This document shows, one piece after another, positions 3,459-43,928 of a stretch of DNA of 49,407 bases (its first letter is position 1; each line of letters begins with the position of its first letter). The notes under the pieces are model-generated. The model saw only the letters and a program-made list of their open reading frames with translations, had not been told where the DNA came from and ran no database searches. This stretch comes from a virus. The position numbers and the translations under genes were made by a program. The DNA is taken from positions 1 through 49,407 of the IMG/VR virus record IMGVR_UViG_3300032770_000030. One strand, given 5' to 3'.

Positions 3459-4214
3459 TTACCTCGAACGGGTGTCATAAAGGAAGCGGATCGAATCGGT
3501 GTTTTCCTGCGACCAGTCAACCATCTCTTCATATTGTTGGGCCGCCCTCATGCTGATCTCCTTCACCCGATCCATCGACGTGGCGTACTCCATACTGATC
3601 TCATTGGCCAGGCACCATGACAGGGCCTGATAGCACTCCTGCGGGAAGTCCACAGGATCAGTCCCAAGATTAACATCATCAAGTGTTGATAGGCACACCA
3701 ACCATATGGTCCTTGTAGCATCGTTAGGTGTAGGATAGAACGTGATAAAGCTGCTCACCCCAGTATATGCACTATCGTCCAGAGGTTGATACCAGTAACT
3801 ATTAACCACACCAAGACTTCCCTTAGCTCCGTACTGGTTATACTCCTGGATGGAGAGAGGGTCGATCGGTGTGTCGAAGCTGTTTGAATCTCTGATGAAG
3901 GCATACGTCACCTTTAGAATCTTTGAACAAACCACAGCACCTGTGCCTGAAGCATAGGGACCTATCTCATAAGTGTTCTGGCCTTCTATCAGAGGCACCG
4001 TGTTGTAGACAATCTTCCACATGGGAAGACCCTTACGAATCCACGCCTTAATCATCATGTTGAAGGCGAGCTGGACGTTGGCATAGTCTTGTGATGATGG
4101 GGGGTTAGTAGCGTCGAACGTCCCACAAAGGCGCAAGGCACGGTTCATTATGTCACTTGCCTGGACAGAAAAAGTGGTAGTAGTCAGTACTGTAGGAGTT
4201 ACTATGAGTGACAT
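3459..4214 (-). CDS. Head-to-tail adaptor (P22 gp4 / T7 gp11-like)
   Basis: A 251-residue protein of the adaptor family that sits between portal and tail nozzle. Visible hallmarks are the N-terminal helical stretch ASDIMNRALRLCG, the segment FNMMIKAWIRKGLPMW (the long helix followed by a Trp), and a C-terminal helical half (ECYQALSWCLANEISMEY). Length and position immediately before the nozzle gene fit this class. The stop is followed directly by the nozzle's ribosome-binding site, indicating one operon. A cargo function is unlikely. Confidence 0.75.
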   Translation of the reverse strand: MSLIVTPTVLTTTTFSVQASDIMNRALRLCGTFDATNPPSSQDYANVQLAFNMMIKAWIRKGLPMWKIVYNTVPLIEGQNTYEIGPYASGTGAVVCSKILKVTYAFIRDSNSFDTPIDPLSIQEYNQYGAKGSLGVVNSYWYQPLDDSAYTGVSSFITFYPTPNDATRTIWLVCLSTLDDVNLGTDPVDFPQECYQALSWCLANEISMEYATSMDRVKEISMRAAQQYEEMVDWSQENTDSIRFLYDTRSR

Positions 4215-4445
4215 GGTAGCACCAATCTATATTTGCCTAAAAGCGGCTTGTGTGATTGTGGCAGGATGGTCCGGTATTATCTACCGGGCAACCTGGGCTA
4301 TGTTGAGCCTTGATTTAAAAGTGGAGCTACGCAACCACATACCACGTGGTCGTCGAGGCAACGTATCTGAATTTAGTCGCTAGATATCCTGTCACGGAAC
4401 TGGCACCCCCTGCAATCGACGCCCGTATGGAGCCCGGTACCCCAA
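4215..4445. other. 231-nt gap between tailspike and adaptor genes
   Basis: No supported gene lies here in a structural operon that otherwise has almost no spacing. It holds a 6-bp hairpin (4271-4287, CCGGTA/TACCGG, five-base loop) and a 10-bp perfect palindrome ACCACGTGGT near 4342. No U-tract follows the hairpin on either strand. It may be a remnant of exchange of the receptor-binding module or a regulatory spacer. Confidence 0.4.
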
Positions 4446-22198: not shown

Positions 22199-22645
22199 AT
22201 GGGAAAAAGAGGCACTCCAAACACTCCGACACCTTTGGACCACTTCATCGCTATCGACTTTGAAACTCTACAGTATGTTGCGGACCACGGTCAAATCACG
22301 ATCAACTTCGCAACGGACAGTCAGGCATGTAACACGATGTCGCGGCTGCGCCGACTGCAAAAGAGTCTCGCAGCCTACAAACCGGACGATCCACTGTCAA
22401 TTGCGGCGAAGTCGTTTGTGTTCAAGTGGAGAGTGCGAACAACATACCTGACCATATCGGACAGGTTGCGGTCCCAAGAGACTGATGCAATGCGCAAGGC
22501 GCTCGAAGGGAAGTGTGATGTAGTGAGTTCAGACCCGATGGAGCTAACGACGCCGATTGACGTCGATGCCCTTGAGGCAGAATATCAGGCAGAGCAGGCT
22601 AGACTAAAGGAGCAGGCAAATGGCAACGAAGCAGGCAAAGGTTGA
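22199..22645 (+). CDS. Early hypothetical protein, first gene after the candidate origin
   Basis: A 148-residue protein starting MGKRGTPNTPTPL; GGGGAG precedes the ATG. The centre (MSRLRRLQKSLAAY ... FVFKWRVRTTYLTIS) is basic and could contact nucleic acid; the C-terminus is an acidic helix. It overlaps the next gene by 26 bases. No family known. Position next to iteron-like repeats makes an origin-binding role worth testing. Confidence 0.55.
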   Translation: MGKRGTPNTPTPLDHFIAIDFETLQYVADHGQITINFATDSQACNTMSRLRRLQKSLAAYKPDDPLSIAAKSFVFKWRVRTTYLTISDRLRSQETDAMRKALEGKCDVVSSDPMELTTPIDVDALEAEYQAEQARLKEQANGNEAGKG

Positions 22646-23120
22646 GGTCTCAACCATCATTCATGACGATGGCGGCTTCACCCACACACTCAATTACACG
22701 AATGGGCATACACGGGTCTTCTCGGTCGCACCAGACCACGAACTCTATGCACGATTCGCCGCAGCAGGGGCGAAGGGCAAGATTCTCGGTGCGGCAAACA
22801 GCGCCGATGATAGCGACAAGGCCGTCACCAAGGTCGATGCGCTACTCGATGCGTTTGACGAGGGCGAATGGTCCCTGGTTGGTGAGGGTGGTCCTAAGTA
22901 TAGTCCGCTTGTACGTGCGTTGGCAGAACTCAAGGGCATCAGTGAGGGCGAAGCTAACACAATCGTCAAGGGACTGACCAAGAGCCAACAGGCGAAGCTG
23001 CGGAGAACCGAACGCATCGCAACCCTCATCGCAAAGTTCAAAGGGGAGACAGACGGCGACGCAGTTCTCGATGACTTGTTGAAGGACGAGGGCGACGATG
23101 CTATTGAACGTGTCGCCTGA
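22620..23120 (+). CDS. Conserved hypothetical phage protein
   Basis: A 166-residue protein: N-terminal beta half (IIHDDGGFTHTLNYTNGHT, then VFSVAPDHELYARFAA), acidic helical C-terminal half with SPLVRALAELKGISE and ending DDLLKDEGDD. Similar proteins accompany podovirus early genes without known role. AAAGGAG sets the ATG. The acidic tail could mimic DNA or bind a basic partner; inference only. Confidence 0.6.
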   Translation: MATKQAKVEVSTIIHDDGGFTHTLNYTNGHTRVFSVAPDHELYARFAAAGAKGKILGAANSADDSDKAVTKVDALLDAFDEGEWSLVGEGGPKYSPLVRALAELKGISEGEANTIVKGLTKSQQAKLRRTERIATLIAKFKGETDGDAVLDDLLKDEGDDAIERVA

Positions 23121-23499
23121 AGAACTGGTACTGCTTAAGGCGGCAATCGACATTGCACGCATCGCAGCTTCAGGGTACAGTGTAAGGCAGTGTCCCGAAA
23201 GGGCAGAGATCAGTGAGAACTGGGACAAGTTTAGCAAGTTGCGTGAACGCGTTCATCGACTTGAGTCACAAAGGGAGTTTCACATGGCACATCCAGCAAA
23301 GGCAGGTCGCAAGTACATCCACGTAGCACTCGATGAAGAAGTGCATGACAGGGTACATTCGTACCTTCTGCATCAAGGGAACGGGAAGATCATTACAGGG
23401 GCACTTGGGCACCTTGTTGAGAGGGCGCTTACGGACTACCTGAACCGGAACCCCGCAGTGTTGTGGCCAGGCACCGAAAGGGACGCCAACGCCGCATAG
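23098..23499 (+). CDS. Protein with C-terminal ribbon-helix-helix-like segment
   Basis: A 133-residue frame. The first 60 residues are helical; from residue 63 (MAHPAKAGRKYIHVALDEE) the pattern of a short strand KYIHVALD followed by two helices (ITGALGHLVERALTDYL) resembles RHH or plasmid-type DNA-binding proteins. An excellent AGGGAG lies six bases before the internal ATG at 23284, so the 71-residue RHH-like part may be a separate or alternative product. It could regulate the early arm. Confidence 0.5.
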   Translation: MLLNVSPEELVLLKAAIDIARIAASGYSVRQCPERAEISENWDKFSKLRERVHRLESQREFHMAHPAKAGRKYIHVALDEEVHDRVHSYLLHQGNGKIITGALGHLVERALTDYLNRNPAVLWPGTERDANAA

Positions 23500-23505
23500 T
23501 TCAAC

Positions 23506-23595
23506 GGGCCAGGGCGTCTCATGACGAGCCGACTGTAGTGGCAAGAAAGCCGCCCGCCTACAGGACACGGTTCTAGGACGAAACCTGGCCCACCA
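23506..23595 (+). ncRNA. tRNA-like RNA element ending in ACCA (not a canonical tRNA)
   Basis: A 90-nt segment is closed by a perfect 7-bp helix GGGCCAG/CTGGCCC followed by A and CCA, exactly the acceptor end of a tRNA. Inside are a hairpin CGTC-TCAT-GACG at the D-arm position, a long central arm CTGTAG/CTACAG enclosing GGC-AAGAAA-GCC, and a weak GGTT/AACC arm at the T position. It lacks a normal seven-base anticodon loop and T-loop sequence, so it is probably not a translating tRNA. The length is that of class II tRNAs. It might mimic a tRNA or be a processed regulatory RNA. Confidence 0.5.
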
Positions 23596-23599
23596 ATGA

Positions 23600-23865
23600 G
23601 CACGTCTACACAGACCCAGACGTGCGCATCGGGATACTTGCCCTTTCCACCCGTACAAAAGGAAGGGCACGATGTTGCGCCAAGGCGTGAAAGCGTGAAG
23701 CAAGTAGCGTGCAAGGCCAGTCATCCCCGGGTGGACTCTAACTACCCGGCCAGCTTGTACAGGGCAGAACACTGGTCTAGCATGGATTTACATGCGCGAG
23801 CCAGTCAGGGTTAAACCGGCCAGTGTCCTGCACCTGTGCTACCAGCACTAATAGTTAGGAGTCCA
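23600..23865 (+). ncRNA. Series of strong hairpins, probable structured RNA
   Basis: This 266-nt stretch between genes has no supported reading frame but several strong helices. They are GCACGTCT/AGACGTGC (8 bp, 23600-23625), TGCCCTT-CC/GGAAGGGCA (9 bp, one bulge, 23639-23669), a long-range TACTTGC/GCAAGTA (23635-23641 with 23700-23706, an alternative to the previous stem), CCGGGT/ACCCGG (23727-23749), ACACTGG/CCAGTGT extended by CAGG/CCTG (23760-23830), and GTGCT/AGCAC (near 23836-23848). No U-run is present. Together with the preceding tRNA-like element it looks like one or more stable RNAs or a processed leader. Confidence 0.5.
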
Positions 23866-23869
23866 AGCG

Positions 23870-24004
23870 ATGAGCTTGCGCCAACTTGATGCAGCCGGTA
23901 CAGTGGAAGTGTGGTCCCGCTACATGCTGGCGTTCTATGGGGACCAGCAATTCTACTGCTATGAGTGGTTCCATGAAGCAAAACCCGCACGGAGGCGGAA
24001 ATGA
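23870..24004 (+). CDS. Small hypothetical protein
   Basis: A 44-residue protein rich in aromatic residues (WSRYMLAFYGDQQFYCYEWF) with a basic end ARRRK. AGGAG eight bases before the ATG supports it, and its TGA overlaps the next ATG. No family. Confidence 0.5.
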   Translation: MSLRQLDAAGTVEVWSRYMLAFYGDQQFYCYEWFHEAKPARRRK

Positions 24005-33561: not shown

Positions 33562-33770
33562 CACACAAGGTCGGAGACAGAGTGTGGTGTCCTGTCCCGG
33601 ACAGCTGGGGCGTTGAGGATACCCACCTGGAAGGCACCGTAACGGCTGTCAGCAAGGTTGCTGGCATCCCCTACTGCACCGTACAGATAGATCAGGTGAC
33701 AAAAGTCGGCAGCATCTTCTTCGGCCCTGACGACAAGTGGTACGAACTGAAGACAAAGGTGTACCTATGA
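33558..33770 (+). CDS. Small beta-barrel-like hypothetical protein
   Basis: A 70-residue protein (HKVGDRVWCPVPDSWGVE ... VGSIFFGPDDKWYELK) with the turn and strand pattern of a small SH3-like or KOW barrel. Coupled to the polymerase gene by an ATGA overlap. Confidence 0.5.
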   Translation: MTHKVGDRVWCPVPDSWGVEDTHLEGTVTAVSKVAGIPYCTVQIDQVTKVGSIFFGPDDKWYELKTKVYL

Positions 33771-35413
33771 CAGTCCCCTCTTCCGGGCCGATGGATGCCC
33801 GCATCATGATCGTGGGCGAAGCCCCCGGCGTGGACGAGGTACGACTCAACACACCCTTTGTGGGCGCAAGCGGACAGTTGCTCGACCGGATGCTAGCGGA
33901 CGCAGGCATCAGTCGCTCCCAGTGCAGGGTCACGAACGTATGCAGGGAGCGGCCCCCCGGCAACAAGATCGAACTGTGGACACCACGCACCAAAAAGACA
34001 CAGGATGAAAGTCGCTCTCTTGGCTGGCCTACTTTGCTTGGCCGCGTGGTTCATCCTTCTGTGGCTGATGGTTACAGACTTCTCCTGGCAGAGATTGAAG
34101 CAGTTCGCCCTACGGTCATCATCGCCCTCGGCAACACCGCCCTGTGGGCGCTCACTGGTCTCGATAGTGTTGCAAAGTGGCGAGGCTCTACCCTGGAGAC
34201 GGAACATGGACTCGTGCTTCCTACCTATCACCCCGCCGGTGTCTTGCGCCAATGGACACTTAAGCCATGTGTCGTGCAGGACTTGCGGAGAGCATCCGAT
34301 GCGCTGCGAAGGTATCCGCATCATCCAGAGTGGTCTTTTCTTGTACGTCCTACGCTGTCCCAGGTGCGGGACACCCTTGAACGCCTTTATAACGAGAGTG
34401 AAAGAGGCCCGCTGAAGCTGGCAGTCGATATTGAGACGAGAGCCGGTCACATTGCCTGCATCGGCGTAGCCTGGAGTAACACTCATGCCATTTGTATCCC
34501 GCTACTGTGTGTGGAAAGGCCCGAAGGGTACTGGTCAATGGAGGACGAGGCTGAGATTGTGTGGCTTCTCTATAGGCTACTCACGCACCCTAACGTACTC
34601 ACGGTCGGCCAAAACTTTATTTACGATGCGCAATATATCCTTAGACATTGGCACTGGGTTCCACGCAAAGTTAGAGATACGATGGTAGCCCAACACGTAT
34701 GCTATCCCGGCATGCAAAAGTCCCTCGACTTCATAGCCTCAATGTATTGCGACTACTACGTCTACTGGAAGGATGACGGCAAGGAGTGGGACAAGCACGG
34801 AGATGATAATGAAGATCAGTATTGGCGATACAACTGTGAGGACTGCATTCGCACGTTTGAAGCCGATACCGTCCTACAGGAAGTGGTCGATAGAATGGGT
34901 CTGCGTGGACCACATGACTTCCAGCAGTCGCTCTTTGGTCCTGTTCTTAGGACGATGGCACGCGGCGTTCGTGTTGACCAGGACCAGCGTAAGGCCATGT
35001 TAAAGGAGCTAAAGGAACATGCACAGCAGCTTCAGGCGGAAGTTACCGAGATGGTTGGGTATGAACTAAATCCGAAAAGCCCAAAGCAGATGTGCACCTT
35101 CTTCTACGACGAGATGGGCGCAACAGCTATCCGCAATAGGAAGACAAAGGCACTCTGTTGCGACGATGAGGCGCTTGACAAGATTGGACAACGAGAGATA
35201 CTTCTTAGACCAATCACTGATCGCATCAAGGCGTACAGGTCTTGTGAAACCATAGCTTCGAATGCGCTTAAGGCGAGTGCAATCGGCTACGACGGTAGAA
35301 TACATTGCTCGTATAACATTACCGGCACCATAACCTTTCGGTTCTCAAGCAGTACTGATGCCTTCGGCAGCGGCATGAACCTTCAGAATATCACAGCAGG
35401 GGATAAGGAATGA
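33767..35413 (+). CDS. DNA polymerase I family, N-terminal part: UDG domain plus 3'-5' exonuclease
   Basis: A 548-residue fusion. Residues 1-190 form a family 4-like uracil-DNA glycosylase: GEAPG at 17-21, the VCRERPPGN loop near 50, and the HPAG motif near 160; the N-terminal CxxC of typical Fe-S family 4 enzymes is not visible. A PolA 3'-5' exonuclease follows with intact motifs LAVDIETR, QNFIYDAQYILRHW and YNCEDC. The polymerase thumb region continues up to MNLQNITAGDKE, just before motif A, where the gene stops. The stop overlaps the next ATG (ATGA). The missing palm motifs are in the gene at 36084. A UDG-like domain fused to PolA is known in SPO1-type phages, as I recall. Confidence 0.8.
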   Translation: MTVPSSGPMDARIMIVGEAPGVDEVRLNTPFVGASGQLLDRMLADAGISRSQCRVTNVCRERPPGNKIELWTPRTKKTQDESRSLGWPTLLGRVVHPSVADGYRLLLAEIEAVRPTVIIALGNTALWALTGLDSVAKWRGSTLETEHGLVLPTYHPAGVLRQWTLKPCVVQDLRRASDALRRYPHHPEWSFLVRPTLSQVRDTLERLYNESERGPLKLAVDIETRAGHIACIGVAWSNTHAICIPLLCVERPEGYWSMEDEAEIVWLLYRLLTHPNVLTVGQNFIYDAQYILRHWHWVPRKVRDTMVAQHVCYPGMQKSLDFIASMYCDYYVYWKDDGKEWDKHGDDNEDQYWRYNCEDCIRTFEADTVLQEVVDRMGLRGPHDFQQSLFGPVLRTMARGVRVDQDQRKAMLKELKEHAQQLQAEVTEMVGYELNPKSPKQMCTFFYDEMGATAIRNRKTKALCCDDEALDKIGQREILLRPITDRIKAYRSCETIASNALKASAIGYDGRIHCSYNITGTITFRFSSSTDAFGSGMNLQNITAGDKE

Positions 35414-35739
35414 AGAACTTTGAAACATTCGGCGCACGCCTCTATCGACTTCGGATGGAGCGCGACATGAACCAACGAATGCTTGCCACCAGAATAGGTG
35501 CGCACCCATCAGCCATAGGCTACTATGAGAAAGGTAAACAACACCCTGGCTACTGGGCACTCGTAGAGATGGCCCATGTCCTCAACGTATCCCTAGACTA
35601 CCTGATGCTTGGAGAAGAGTATGCCAATGCCCAACATACAAAAGAATCGCAGCTACGTGAAGCACGGGATGACGAATACTCCCGAGTATCGCGCGTGGCA
35701 GGAAATGATCCAGCGGTGCTACAATCCAAACGGGAATAG
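35410..35739 (+). CDS. XRE-type HTH protein inside the split polymerase
   Basis: A 109-residue protein whose first 75 residues are a Cro/CI-type HTH (RLYRLRMERDMNQRMLATR, then IGAHPSAIGYYEKGK). The C-terminal part after LGEEY may be non-native because the following gene overlaps it in another frame. AGGGG seven bases before the ATG gives independent translation. It may regulate the homing cassette or the polymerase operon. It is not part of a recognisable lysogeny module. Confidence 0.65.
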   Translation: MKNFETFGARLYRLRMERDMNQRMLATRIGAHPSAIGYYEKGKQHPGYWALVEMAHVLNVSLDYLMLGEEYANAQHTKESQLREARDDEYSRVSRVAGNDPAVLQSKRE

Positions 35740-36097
35740 ATATCATCGCTATGGTGGTAGAGGCATTACAGTATGTGCAAGATGGCTGGAATCGTTTGAG
35801 AACTTCTATAAAGACATGGGAGACAGGCCCTCTATTAGACACTCCCTAGACAGAAAGGACAATGACCTTGGTTACTATAAAGAGAACTGTCGATGGGCAA
35901 CCCCGGGTCAACAAGCCTACAATAAAACCCATAAAAAGAACTCTACAGGAAGGGTAGTAGGGGTAGCTTTAGGAAATAAGGAGTGGATGGCTTACGCCAA
36001 TAAGGACGGTAAAAGGGTTTATCTATACCACGGACAAGATTTTTTCGAAGCATGTTGTGCAAGAAAGTCCTGGGAGTTGCATCATGCCCCTACCTAA
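35621..36097 (+). CDS. HNH-type (homing-like) endonuclease inside the split polymerase
   Basis: A 158-residue protein with the common phage motif set RSYVKHGMTNTPEYRAWQEM, CYNPNGNRYHRYGGRGI, then SLDRKDND and NCRWATPGQQAYNKT. These occur in free-standing HNH/AP2-like endonucleases that cut invasion sites. GGAG six bases before the ATG supports the start at 35621. It overlaps the polymerase C-terminal gene by 14 bases. Location in a highly conserved active-site position is typical of homing endonucleases. Confidence 0.7.
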   Translation: MPMPNIQKNRSYVKHGMTNTPEYRAWQEMIQRCYNPNGNRYHRYGGRGITVCARWLESFENFYKDMGDRPSIRHSLDRKDNDLGYYKENCRWATPGQQAYNKTHKKNSTGRVVGVALGNKEWMAYANKDGKRVYLYHGQDFFEACCARKSWELHHAPT

Positions 36098-36800
36098 TAT
36101 TAGGTCCATGTTCATACCGGACCCCGGCATGATGATGGGCGACCTGGACCTGGACTCAGCGGACCTTCGAGTGGTGACATGGGAGAGCGACTGCAAAGGG
36201 ATGAAGGCTTTATTCCAGGAGGGGACCAAGCCCTACCTCGTTGTCGCTAGGGAGTACTACCATGACCCGTCGATATCTAAGGCGCATCCGGCCTATCATA
36301 CATTCAAGAAGCTGTGTCATGGAACGAATTACATGGGAAAGGCTTCAGAAATTGCGGGGCAATGCGGCTTACTGGTCAAGGAAGTGGAGCGTATTCAGAA
36401 ATGGTACTTTGGTATGTTCCCCGAGATTGCTCGGTGGCAGGAAGTCTTTATCAAGAAGTGTATTCGAACGGGTACTGTATCGAACGCCTTTGGGTACAGG
36501 AAGAAATTTCTCGAACGCATTGAAGGGAACGTCCTCAACCGGATGATTGCGTGGGTACCGCAATCAACAGTTGGCATCCTCATCAATAAAATGTATGTGG
36601 CTATAGACAAAGAACTCCCTGACGTAGAAGTTCTTCTTCAGGTTCACGATAGTCTCACATTCCAGCTTCCAGTAGAGAACAGTGTAATACATTTAGAGTC
36701 TATAAAAAAAGTATGTAATATTCCTGTTCCTTATCCTGAGCCTTTGTGGATACCTGTGGGAATAAAAACCTCTGATAAGTCCTGGGGAGATTGTAAGTGA
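36084..36800 (+). CDS. DNA polymerase I family, C-terminal part (palm and fingers)
   Basis: A 238-residue protein carrying the remaining PolA motifs. Motif A is DLDLDSADLRV (catalytic Asp), motif B KKLCHGTNYMG in the O helix, and motif C QVHDSL. It resumes the polymerase where the upstream fragment ends (LPNIRSMFIPDPG is the usual motif A lead-in). GGGAG seven bases before the ATG gives it its own translation start, so the polymerase is likely made as two subunits. An in-frame longer version starting at 36057 lacks a site. Confidence 0.8.
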   Translation: MPLPNIRSMFIPDPGMMMGDLDLDSADLRVVTWESDCKGMKALFQEGTKPYLVVAREYYHDPSISKAHPAYHTFKKLCHGTNYMGKASEIAGQCGLLVKEVERIQKWYFGMFPEIARWQEVFIKKCIRTGTVSNAFGYRKKFLERIEGNVLNRMIAWVPQSTVGILINKMYVAIDKELPDVEVLLQVHDSLTFQLPVENSVIHLESIKKVCNIPVPYPEPLWIPVGIKTSDKSWGDCK

Positions 36801-41755: not shown

Positions 41756-42616
41756 TCATTTCATCTCATAGACAATAACAACACCGTTTCCGCCATTACC
41801 ACCGCTCTCGGCTGGCTGATTTGCTTGATAATTTCCACCACAGCCACCTCCAGCGCCGTAACCTTGGGCGTTGTATCCTGCATTATTCCCCGAAGTACAA
41901 TAGGACATGCCAAGAGGAGAAGGACCACCTTGGGTGGAAGCAAAGGATGTCCCTCCACCAAAAACAATAAATCCCCCAGAACCCGCAAAACTTGTAAGAG
42001 TCAATGTAACATTGCTTATAGTTGGGGCGGAACTTCCAGGCCCCGCAGTAGAGTTAGTAGTGACAATTGAGGATGTACCACCTCCTGATATGCTAGCTCC
42101 CCCAGGGCAAGACACAAAAGAACCAAAAGAACTCGTCCCTCCTGCACTTCCTGCACCTCCTCCAGTCCCGCCACTTCCTCCAGTCCCAACCGTAACGGTC
42201 ACACCGCTAGGAACCGACTTCATATAGACCCTAGCGTAAGAGCCGGAGTACCCAGGGAAGCCAGTTGAACTTTGCCCACTCCCCGAAGCAGGCGCACCAC
42301 TAGCCCCACTTCCTGCGCCCATAACTTCAACGATAATTGAGGTGGTGCCAGGTGTTGGGTTATAGGTTCCCCCGGATGTGAACATCTGAATGTTTAGGAG
42401 ACCTGCCCCCAGCGTTATTGAAGTTATCCCACCTCCGTAGAAGATCGGGATCATGCCATCCGAGGCCATCGTCTTAGCAATAGCCGCACTATAGCTAGTA
42501 GCATCAATCCCGAAGGTTAGGTTCTTGAAGCTATTCCATAGCTTGAAGAACCAATCCTTGAATTGTCTCCAGTCGAAAGTCTGCCCACTGGGCGGCGGGT
42601 TGACGTTGTTAGTCAT
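41756..42616 (-). CDS. Glycine-rich tail fibre adhesin
   Basis: A 286-residue protein. The N-terminal 50 residues are a hydrophilic stalk-binding segment (FKDWFFKLWNSFKNLTFG). Then comes a polyglycine-rich body with repeated GGSGGTGGG-type loops (VEVMGAGSG, VTVTVGTGGSGG) ending in GGNGGNGVVIVYEM, the usual end of phage Gly-rich tail-tip adhesins. Such proteins fold into polyglycine II sandwiches and carry host specificity loops. The ATG at 42616 follows GGAG by eight bases; an earlier start ten codons upstream is less likely. It overlaps the ATP-grasp stop by eight bases. Confidence 0.7.
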   Translation of the reverse strand: MTNNVNPPPSGQTFDWRQFKDWFFKLWNSFKNLTFGIDATSYSAAIAKTMASDGMIPIFYGGGITSITLGAGLLNIQMFTSGGTYNPTPGTTSIIVEVMGAGSGASGAPASGSGQSSTGFPGYSGSYARVYMKSVPSGVTVTVGTGGSGGTGGGAGSAGGTSSFGSFVSCPGGASISGGGTSSIVTTNSTAGPGSSAPTISNVTLTLTSFAGSGGFIVFGGGTSFASTQGGPSPLGMSYCTSGNNAGYNAQGYGAGGGCGGNYQANQPAESGGNGGNGVVIVYEMK

Positions 42617-43928
42617 CTCCGTAGCTCCACGTCGTTGCAAACCCATTGGCTTTTAGCCGCTTGATGCCCTCTTTGCACCGATCCCCGATATCAGGACGCT
42701 GCCCATGGCTATTCGGCACCCTGATCTGCCCTACGATCCGATACGCATCAGCTTTAGCATCACTAACAGAGGGACCAGTACCCACAACAACAAGAGGCCA
42801 GCTTCCAGCAGTAGCAAAAAGGTCACGAGTGGACCATTTACCTTCTTCATATACTTCCTCTTCAGAAGCCATTACCTCACAGAGGTGAAGGTTCTTGATG
42901 TTTTCGTGGTTGATGCCGTAGATGGGAACGCCTTCGCAGTGCTCAGAAACCTTAGAGTTGTGCGGGAAGTTCGGCCCCACGATACAGACACCGATGCAAT
43001 GGTCCATGCTAACCTTAAGACTGTCTGTGCCGTGCACCAGGTCATACATCCATGTAACAGGGTCGCCTTTATGCATATGCTGGTTTAGGTAGAAGGCGGG
43101 CCAGCCCATACGCATGGTGAATTCAAGGGGCCACGGCACACCATCATCATCAATGATGACTGATACGTCAATGTTTCCTACGAACTTCAATGCTTTAAGG
43201 GCAGGTTCCAATGGGCGAAGTAACATCTCGAAGAGTTTACTATCTTCACAGTACTTAAGCGCTGTGCCCATTTCCCCGGTGTTAGGTCCCGTGTCCCCTG
43301 CGTAGAGTTGCTTGTGTTCAAAATTTTCCTCTAGTGCATTATTGAATCCATGTGGCCCGAACCACCCTGCCGTAGCGAACTCAACCCCTTTAGCTTTCTT
43401 TTGGAGGATAAAGTCCTGCTTGGCTGGGCCATAGATGCGTTGTGCCCTATGCATCATGGAGAGCATGTCATCAGGGCCACTGGCCACATACGAAAGGGAG
43501 CGATCAGCGTCTCCTATGGGCTTACAGGCATAACTATCATTGGTTGCTTTTACATGGAGCATTGCATCCTTGTAGCTACTGAACCTTGTGTAGGGAAGGA
43601 TCTGTGCGCCATGTGAAGAAAGGATATCTTGGCCCACTGTACGATCTAACTCCCACTCAGCAGATGCCTGATTTGCGCCGAAGATGGGATAGCCTGCCTT
43701 GAAGTATTGTTCAAGCTCTGCCCCATACTTGGCACTACAGGTCATAACAATGATATCTGCCCACTTCATATGGTCGCGCCAGTTTGACACTCTATGGGTC
43801 AGACCTTGCCCAATGCGCGGATACTTGCTGTTGGGGGTAAGAAAGTGTTTTACATCGTGACCCGCCCATTGCGCACGTAAACAGAAATCAACCCCTACAC
43901 CATAGCTATCAATGACAAGTACCTTCAT
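42609..43928 (-). CDS. PurD-like ATP-grasp enzyme in the virion/lysis arm
   Basis: A 439-residue protein with an ATP-grasp fold like glycinamide ribonucleotide synthetase (PurD). An N-terminal Rossmann-like pre-ATP domain (MKVLVIDSYGVGVDF) is followed by ATP-binding segments (CKPIGDADRS near 136-144, QKKAKGVEFATAGWF near 176-190). The PurD hallmark GDTGPNTGEMG is at 211-221, and the acidic EFTMRMGWPAF at 269-279 replaces the usual EFNVRFGDPET. The changed substrate-side residues (D to W, E to A, N to T) argue against purine synthesis. It probably ligates a carboxylate to an amine on an unknown substrate. It is coupled to the ejection-protein gene by an ATGA overlap. Confidence 0.75.
   Translation of the reverse strand: MKVLVIDSYGVGVDFCLRAQWAGHDVKHFLTPNSKYPRIGQGLTHRVSNWRDHMKWADIIVMTCSAKYGAELEQYFKAGYPIFGANQASAEWELDRTVGQDILSSHGAQILPYTRFSSYKDAMLHVKATNDSYACKPIGDADRSLSYVASGPDDMLSMMHRAQRIYGPAKQDFILQKKAKGVEFATAGWFGPHGFNNALEENFEHKQLYAGDTGPNTGEMGTALKYCEDSKLFEMLLRPLEPALKALKFVGNIDVSVIIDDDGVPWPLEFTMRMGWPAFYLNQHMHKGDPVTWMYDLVHGTDSLKVSMDHCIGVCIVGPNFPHNSKVSEHCEGVPIYGINHENIKNLHLCEVMASEEEVYEEGKWSTRDLFATAGSWPLVVVGTGPSVSDAKADAYRIVGQIRVPNSHGQRPDIGDRCKEGIKRLKANGFATTWSYGDD

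Follow-up and report, generated by a model that had tools for sequence, protein, structure and literature searches.

A conserved structured phage RNA element that lies beside a Ro60/Y-RNA island in one phage and is kept without the island in related phages

Ro60-Y RNA particles connect the RNA quality control of bacteria with that of animals, and they are carried by phages too. Phage genes that run in the same direction can also be separated by long imperfect hairpins, as at the intercistronic RNase III sites of the T7 type. That phages have Y RNAs, and that these are linked to Rsr, has already been described (PMC12282133, citing Chen et al. 2014), and the Y RNAs of bacteria serve as tethers between Rsr and PNPase (PMC8394870). 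Y RNAs beside Rsr in phages are thus known already; what is new here is the association with Ro60/Y-RNA islands of a further element, which occupies positions 23506-23840 on the plus strand of a phage record of 49,407 bases (IMGVR_UViG_3300032770_000030, G000; the whole of this stretch was analysed and is called the window). It is a conserved structured element in which a rod is followed by two hairpins, then a replaceable segment and finally a branched stem, the order being fixed. It sits in a Ro60/Y-RNA island and persists without one, and it is a lineage-specific new phage RNA.

Four related genomes provide the comparison. With the gene at 22620-23120, upstream of the element, as query, IMG/VR yielded one close relative, G001 (IMGVR_UViG_3300032954_000072, a 19.5-kb fragment; loci L002, L003 and L034), which is 82% identical to the window over the interval. 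G002 (IMGVR_UViG_3300050821_001730; loci L029 and L031), G003 (IMGVR_UViG_3300021405_000018; loci L028 and L032, read on the minus strand) and G008 (IMGVR_UViG_3300030617_000020; loci L030 and L033) were obtained as portal-protein relatives; their homologues of the gene at 23098-23499 are 59%, 62% and 31% identical, respectively, and each is followed by a noncoding island. A DNA similarity search of the window against 50,697 phage records returned no match. When IMG/VR was scanned for exact patterns, a 25-nt pattern from the first domain (unit 1) had no match and a 17-nt unit 1 pattern matched G001 alone, and a degenerate pattern for hairpin B, derived from the aligned sequences, matched in G001 and G003 only. 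This degenerate pattern also matched four times in bacterial genomes; none of the four is matched by model R2, and we rejected them.

The element fills the gap between the stop of the plus-strand gene at 23098-23499 and the ribosome-binding site and ATG at 23870. The parts of the locus are as follows, with compensatory pairs counted against G003.

23098-23499, plus strand: upstream gene, 133 aa, with a weak Arc/RHH-like match; a homologue precedes the island in G001, G002, G003 and G008
23506-23591, plus strand: unit 1, a rod-shaped domain (MFE -41.2 kcal/mol, z -3.7; compensatory changes)
23506-23513/23584-23591, plus strand: helix P1 of unit 1 (three compensatory pairs)
23515-23519/23576-23580, plus strand: helix P2 (missing in G003)
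23526-23531/23568-23573, plus strand: helix P3 (three compensatory pairs)
23533-23538/23558-23563, plus strand: helix P4 (two compensatory pairs)
23539-23542/23549-23552, plus strand: helix P5, the innermost listed for unit 1
23592-23595, plus strand: the ACCA that follows P1; its CCA end is not conserved
23593-23632, plus strand: hairpin A (core 23600-23606/23619-23625; extended arms 23593-23607/23618-23632)
23639-23669, plus strand: hairpin B (23639-23647/23661-23669; no difference in G001; in G003 a homologue most of which pairs)
23673-23756, plus strand: replaceable segment (nearly absent in G003)
23757-23840, plus strand: unit E, a long branched stem seen in the fold, with a full-length G003 counterpart by model R3
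23757-23763/23833-23839, 23764-23767/23828-23831 and 23769-23777/23818-23826, plus strand: stem arms of unit E
23780-23784/23791-23795, plus strand: inner hairpin of unit E
23870-24004, plus strand: downstream small ORF, 44 aa (AGGAG at 23858-23862)

The predicted structure of the upstream protein is of low confidence (pLDDT 57.5) and contains helices only. A sequence-only reading of this locus had singled out a tRNA-like element at its start, and several of its observations hold: GGGCCAG (23506-23512) pairs perfectly with CTGGCCC (23585-23591; 8 bp when G23513-C23584 is included), ACCA follows the helix directly, and further helices lie before the next gene; the number of enclosed bases is 72, in place of the 75 that it gave. 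A perfect 7-bp helix that encloses 55-94 nt and is followed by NCCA occurs eight times in the window (three on the plus and five on the minus strand), and the feature alone is therefore unremarkable. Folding energy is low for the locus (z of -3.7 for 23506-23595 and -5.0 for 23500-23870), and when 274 fixed 180-nt segments were roughly scanned, the one at 23581 ranked only seventh; by itself, folding energy is only suggestive of a structured locus. Because such helices are common and the fold energies are low but not unique, the observation taken alone would carry little weight.

We judge the locus to be real because of compensatory changes in the related phages and because of constraint between the window and G001. 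A covariance model built from these two sequences only (R1) finds G003 over its full length (1-165) at the syntenic site, with an E value of 0.0012 over 347 kb; across 28 sources it returned nothing convincing beyond G003. By primary-sequence alignment, the same block scores z 5.9 against G003, a value reached by none of 1000 shuffles. On the three-phage alignment, which was fitted to the structure model, 96.9% of cells pair, and 14 of the 45 base pairs show two-sided changes with pairing kept (0 of 500 shuffles), most of this covariation coming from the one divergent homologue, G003, given that the other two phages are nearly identical in the block. Controls with the partners slid by one to three columns gave 34-45% paired cells and zero to two two-sided pairs, and P1, P4 and hairpins A and B can also be written directly in each sequence. 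Between the window and G001, the core of hairpin A changes from GCACGTC/GACGTGC to GCACAGC/GCTGTGC, which amounts to two fully compensated pairs, and in G003 it is a different helix again. The suggestion in the sequence-only reading that this might be another structured phage RNA is thus supported by conservation and compensatory change.

Unit 1 differs between the window and G001 at two positions in 90 nt and hairpin B at none, and the segment at 23673-23756 is replaced outright, its sequence in the window being unrelated to that in G001. At fourfold-degenerate sites of four flanking genes, 13.7% of positions differ between the same two phages (189 of 219 are identical); set against this rate, the two differences in 137 nt of unit 1 plus hairpin B (p = 4e-7) would be unlikely without constraint. 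For unit E, model R3 places a counterpart at 4847-4760 on the minus strand of L032 in G003 (E value of 2.7e-5 within the 1-kb island); by sequence alone the similarity is not significant (z 0.6), and the R3 search of 355 kb with default filters does not list it. Unit 1, hairpins A and B and unit E are accordingly the same domains in the same order in G003. A unit E in G002 is unsupported both by alignment and by R3, and homology of unit 1 to G008 is unsupported by sequence alignment (z 0.0).

The RNA of the element is probably untranslated. A short protein could in principle be read from 23596-23814, where a 72-aa frame beginning at 23596 is open in both the window and G001, but the changes at the 5' end of this frame are mostly nonsynonymous and follow the helix, the next 15 or so codons have no synonymous change, and the middle of the frame is unrelated between the two phages. 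The sequence-only reading had counted a reading frame conserved across relatives as grounds against a noncoding RNA, and in G003 the frame is broken. A coding role is extremely improbable on these observations.

The fold that is conserved in unit 1 is the rod and not a cloverleaf. The rod has an energy of -41.2 kcal/mol versus -28.8 to -30.0 kcal/mol for the cloverleaf (about 11 kcal/mol better), and in its helix P3 the presumed D side pairs with the presumed T side; because P3 uses stretches of both sides, rod and cloverleaf are mutually exclusive. In the three-phage alignment the D helix shows no two-sided change and has no letters in G003, from which the 11 nt carrying the D-like arm are absent, and the T helix fails in two of its three pairs there. 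We therefore rejected the cloverleaf: the rod is lower in energy, and covariation supports P3 rather than the D and T arms. The D-like and T-like arms proposed from the sequence thus fall away, neither having convincing compensatory support, and the paired covariation that had been anticipated among homologues was found, for the rod rather than for the cloverleaf. ARAGORN called no tRNA or tmRNA in the window, and at gathering thresholds none of the 4227 Rfam models matched anywhere in it. With E values up to 10 allowed, the 551 nt at 23400-23950 gave only implausible weak chance matches to miRNA and lncRNA models, and no tRNA. With respect to the tRNA family RF00005, the score, the D- and T-arm cloverleaf and a conserved 3' CCA are all lacking.

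These results bear directly on the proposal that the acceptor-like stem with its ACCA is a tRNA mimic or decoy recognised by RNase P or by the CCA-adding enzyme. The blunt G-C-rich stem ending in a 3' ACCA fits such a role, and RNase P does cut the phage M3 RNA and the phage-derived antisense C4 RNA (PMC11143913). Against it, there is no tRNA score, the fold is a rod, the ACCA of the window reads ACCC in G003, and the CCA at 23593-23595 falls in the lower arm of the extended hairpin A in the window, where it is partly paired. We conclude that unit 1 very probably does not function as a tRNA mimic, and recognition of the stem by either enzyme as a decoy appears very improbable. A helix followed by ACCA can mislead, the conserved fold being a rod.

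The genomic setting of the element differs among the relatives. In G003 the order is a CopG/Arc-like gene, unit 1, hairpins A and B, unit E, several Y-like RNAs, a TROVE gene (482 aa) and an HTH-like gene, followed by homologues (by eye) of the window genes from 24001 on. The Y RNAs, the TROVE gene and the HTH-like gene of G003 occupy the slot of the downstream small ORF, and the RNA of the window ends after unit E and a short hairpin, exactly where G003 enters its first Y RNA. G002 carries in the same slot Y-like RNAs, a tRNA-Pro, a further tRNA-like element ending in CACCA and a TROVE gene. Matches to YrlA (RF02553) lie at 4535-4648 of L032 in G003 (43.5 bits) and at 3326-3443 of L031 in G002 (39 bits), both below the gathering score of 69 bits, so that the name rests on score together with context (TROVE adjacency, recurrent flank motifs and a T-arm/D-arm module).

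Genes for TROVE (PF05731) are present in G002 and G003, and a PF05731 search of the window record and of the 19.5-kb G001 fragment found none (for G001 this covers the fragment and not the rest of the phage); nor did a YrlA covariance search match in the window or G001. The Y-RNA flank motifs, which are the 5' and 3' strands of the conserved basal stem as learned from TROVE-phage islands, give pair scores of 25-48 in every TROVE-phage island that was examined apart from L046, where the stretch examined did not show the motif. The best pair scores -4.1 in the window and -1.0 in G001, compared with a mean of 0.5 and a maximum of 13.6 for random window segments, and the G008 island is likewise without these motifs. 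A search for RtcB or an RNA ligase partner in the five phages found none.

Similar Y arrays upstream of TROVE occur in Xanthomonas phage Olaya, Caulobacter phage CcrColossus, Brevundimonas phages and others. Loci L037-L040 and L043-L053, from diverse phages, hold multi-copy Y RNA arrays in this position with recurrent flanks (5' GTGGYGWAG..GGTTACTTC, 3' YTGTTCCC); in four GenBank records that were opened, Y RNA annotation is absent and a few tRNAs are annotated in the intervals. A 58-nt block (TTGCAAAGGGGAAGCCGATACCCTAGCC and flanks), a putative RNA module, is shared at 88% identity by the noncoding islands of G003 (L032, minus strand, about 4183-4240) and G008 (L030, 2253-2310). At 2252-2332 of L029 in G002, a long stem is immediately preceded by a tRNA-like element, TGACGGGG..CCCCCGTCACCA, whose T-loop is good and which ARAGORN does not call. 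Elsewhere in the window (33737-35413, 35410-36094 and 36057-36797), a family A DNA polymerase is divided between two ORFs, the break lying after NLQNI and ahead of motif A; what splits it is an XRE-type HTH gene together with an ORF that looks by eye like a homing endonuclease and has no Pfam match. A uracil-DNA glycosylase domain is fused to the N-terminal portion of the polymerase. The gene at 42609-43928 encodes an ATP-grasp protein resembling phosphoribosylglycinamide synthetase and adjoins a gene for a transglycosylase-domain protein.

The shared slot raises two further readings. The element might be a diverged Y RNA that recruits the Ro60 (Rsr) of the host, given that it occupies the Y RNA/Ro60 slot of its sister phages and has 5' domains in common with G003; this is very unlikely, as the 5' and 3' flank motifs of phage Y RNAs and any YrlA score are absent, and in G003 the element adjoins canonical Y RNAs and does not replace them. 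That it is the decaying relic of a Y RNA/tRNA cluster would fit its replaceable middle segment and the missing Ro60 and Y genes, but unit 1 and hairpin B are conserved beyond fourfold sites and the changes in hairpin A are compensated, which makes decay highly improbable. Ro60 and the Y RNAs may have been lost in the window lineage or gained in G003; both are compatible with the five genomes.

A more serious alternative, which we regard as possible although on the doubtful side, is that the locus is an intercistronic element for mRNA processing or stability, its hairpins serving, as between T7 genes, as sites for RNase III or other RNases and as exonuclease barriers, and so keeping the message of the upstream gene apart from that of the downstream gene. 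The RNA takes up the space between two genes of the same direction and leads directly into a ribosome-binding site, unit E and the extended hairpin A are long stems that resemble RNase III substrates, and a search of the plus strand found no promoter or terminator above chance. A processing site has no obvious need, however, for strong conservation of unit 1 and hairpin B or for four ordered domains, and the gene that follows is not the same in the different phages. A trans-acting RNA is favoured by the constraint seen in unit 1 and hairpin B and by the fact that four ordered domains are retained.

Our leading interpretation, held with about equal belief and doubt, is that this conserved structured RNA, which makes up the 5' part of the Y-RNA/Ro60 island in G003 and is kept in the window and G001, where the Y RNAs and Ro60 were not found, acts as a stable RNA in trans. 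It would be co-transcribed with the genes on either side, as no promoter of its own exceeded chance, which also counts against an independent trans-acting RNA, and host RNases would release or protect it. It would then take part in phage RNA handling without depending on a phage Ro60, its role being that of a scaffold or decoy towards an RNA-binding protein or a nuclease. The conserved loops have no convincing antisense complement elsewhere in the window. A bolder version, offered tentatively and rather unlikely as it stands, is that the element represents a new class of phage RNA of Ro60/Y-RNA islands that works without Ro60, a cofactor kept by a phage that has lost Ro60 and Y RNAs or has yet to gain them; such a cofactor could perhaps target PNPase or Ro60 of the host, or work together with the RHH-like protein encoded next to it. 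The lineage in any case provides a natural comparison, in which some members have the full island and others only its non-Y RNA component; this separates Ro60-dependent from Ro60-independent parts and supplies a compact RNA for tests.

Among known systems, tRNAs and tRNA-like elements share the 7-bp stem and ACCA, but the element has no cloverleaf, T-loop, anticodon loop or tRNA score. It resembles the RNase-P-processed phage RNAs (M3 and antisense C4; PMC11143913), which are recognised through a stem, in being a phage-encoded structured RNA whose unit 1 is a rod with an acceptor-like end, and it differs from them in having no Rfam match and an unconserved CCA. With the Ro60 (Rsr/TROVE)-Y RNA (YrlA) islands it shares the slot in sister phages, the G003 element lying immediately 5' of Y RNAs and TROVE, although neither a TROVE gene nor Y flank motifs were detected in the window or G001; unlike Y RNAs, its rod, hairpin and E domains are not recognisable as such and belong to no Rfam family. 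Like the T7-type RNase III sites, it places long imperfect hairpins between co-directional genes, and unlike them it has four ordered domains, some of which are strongly constrained.
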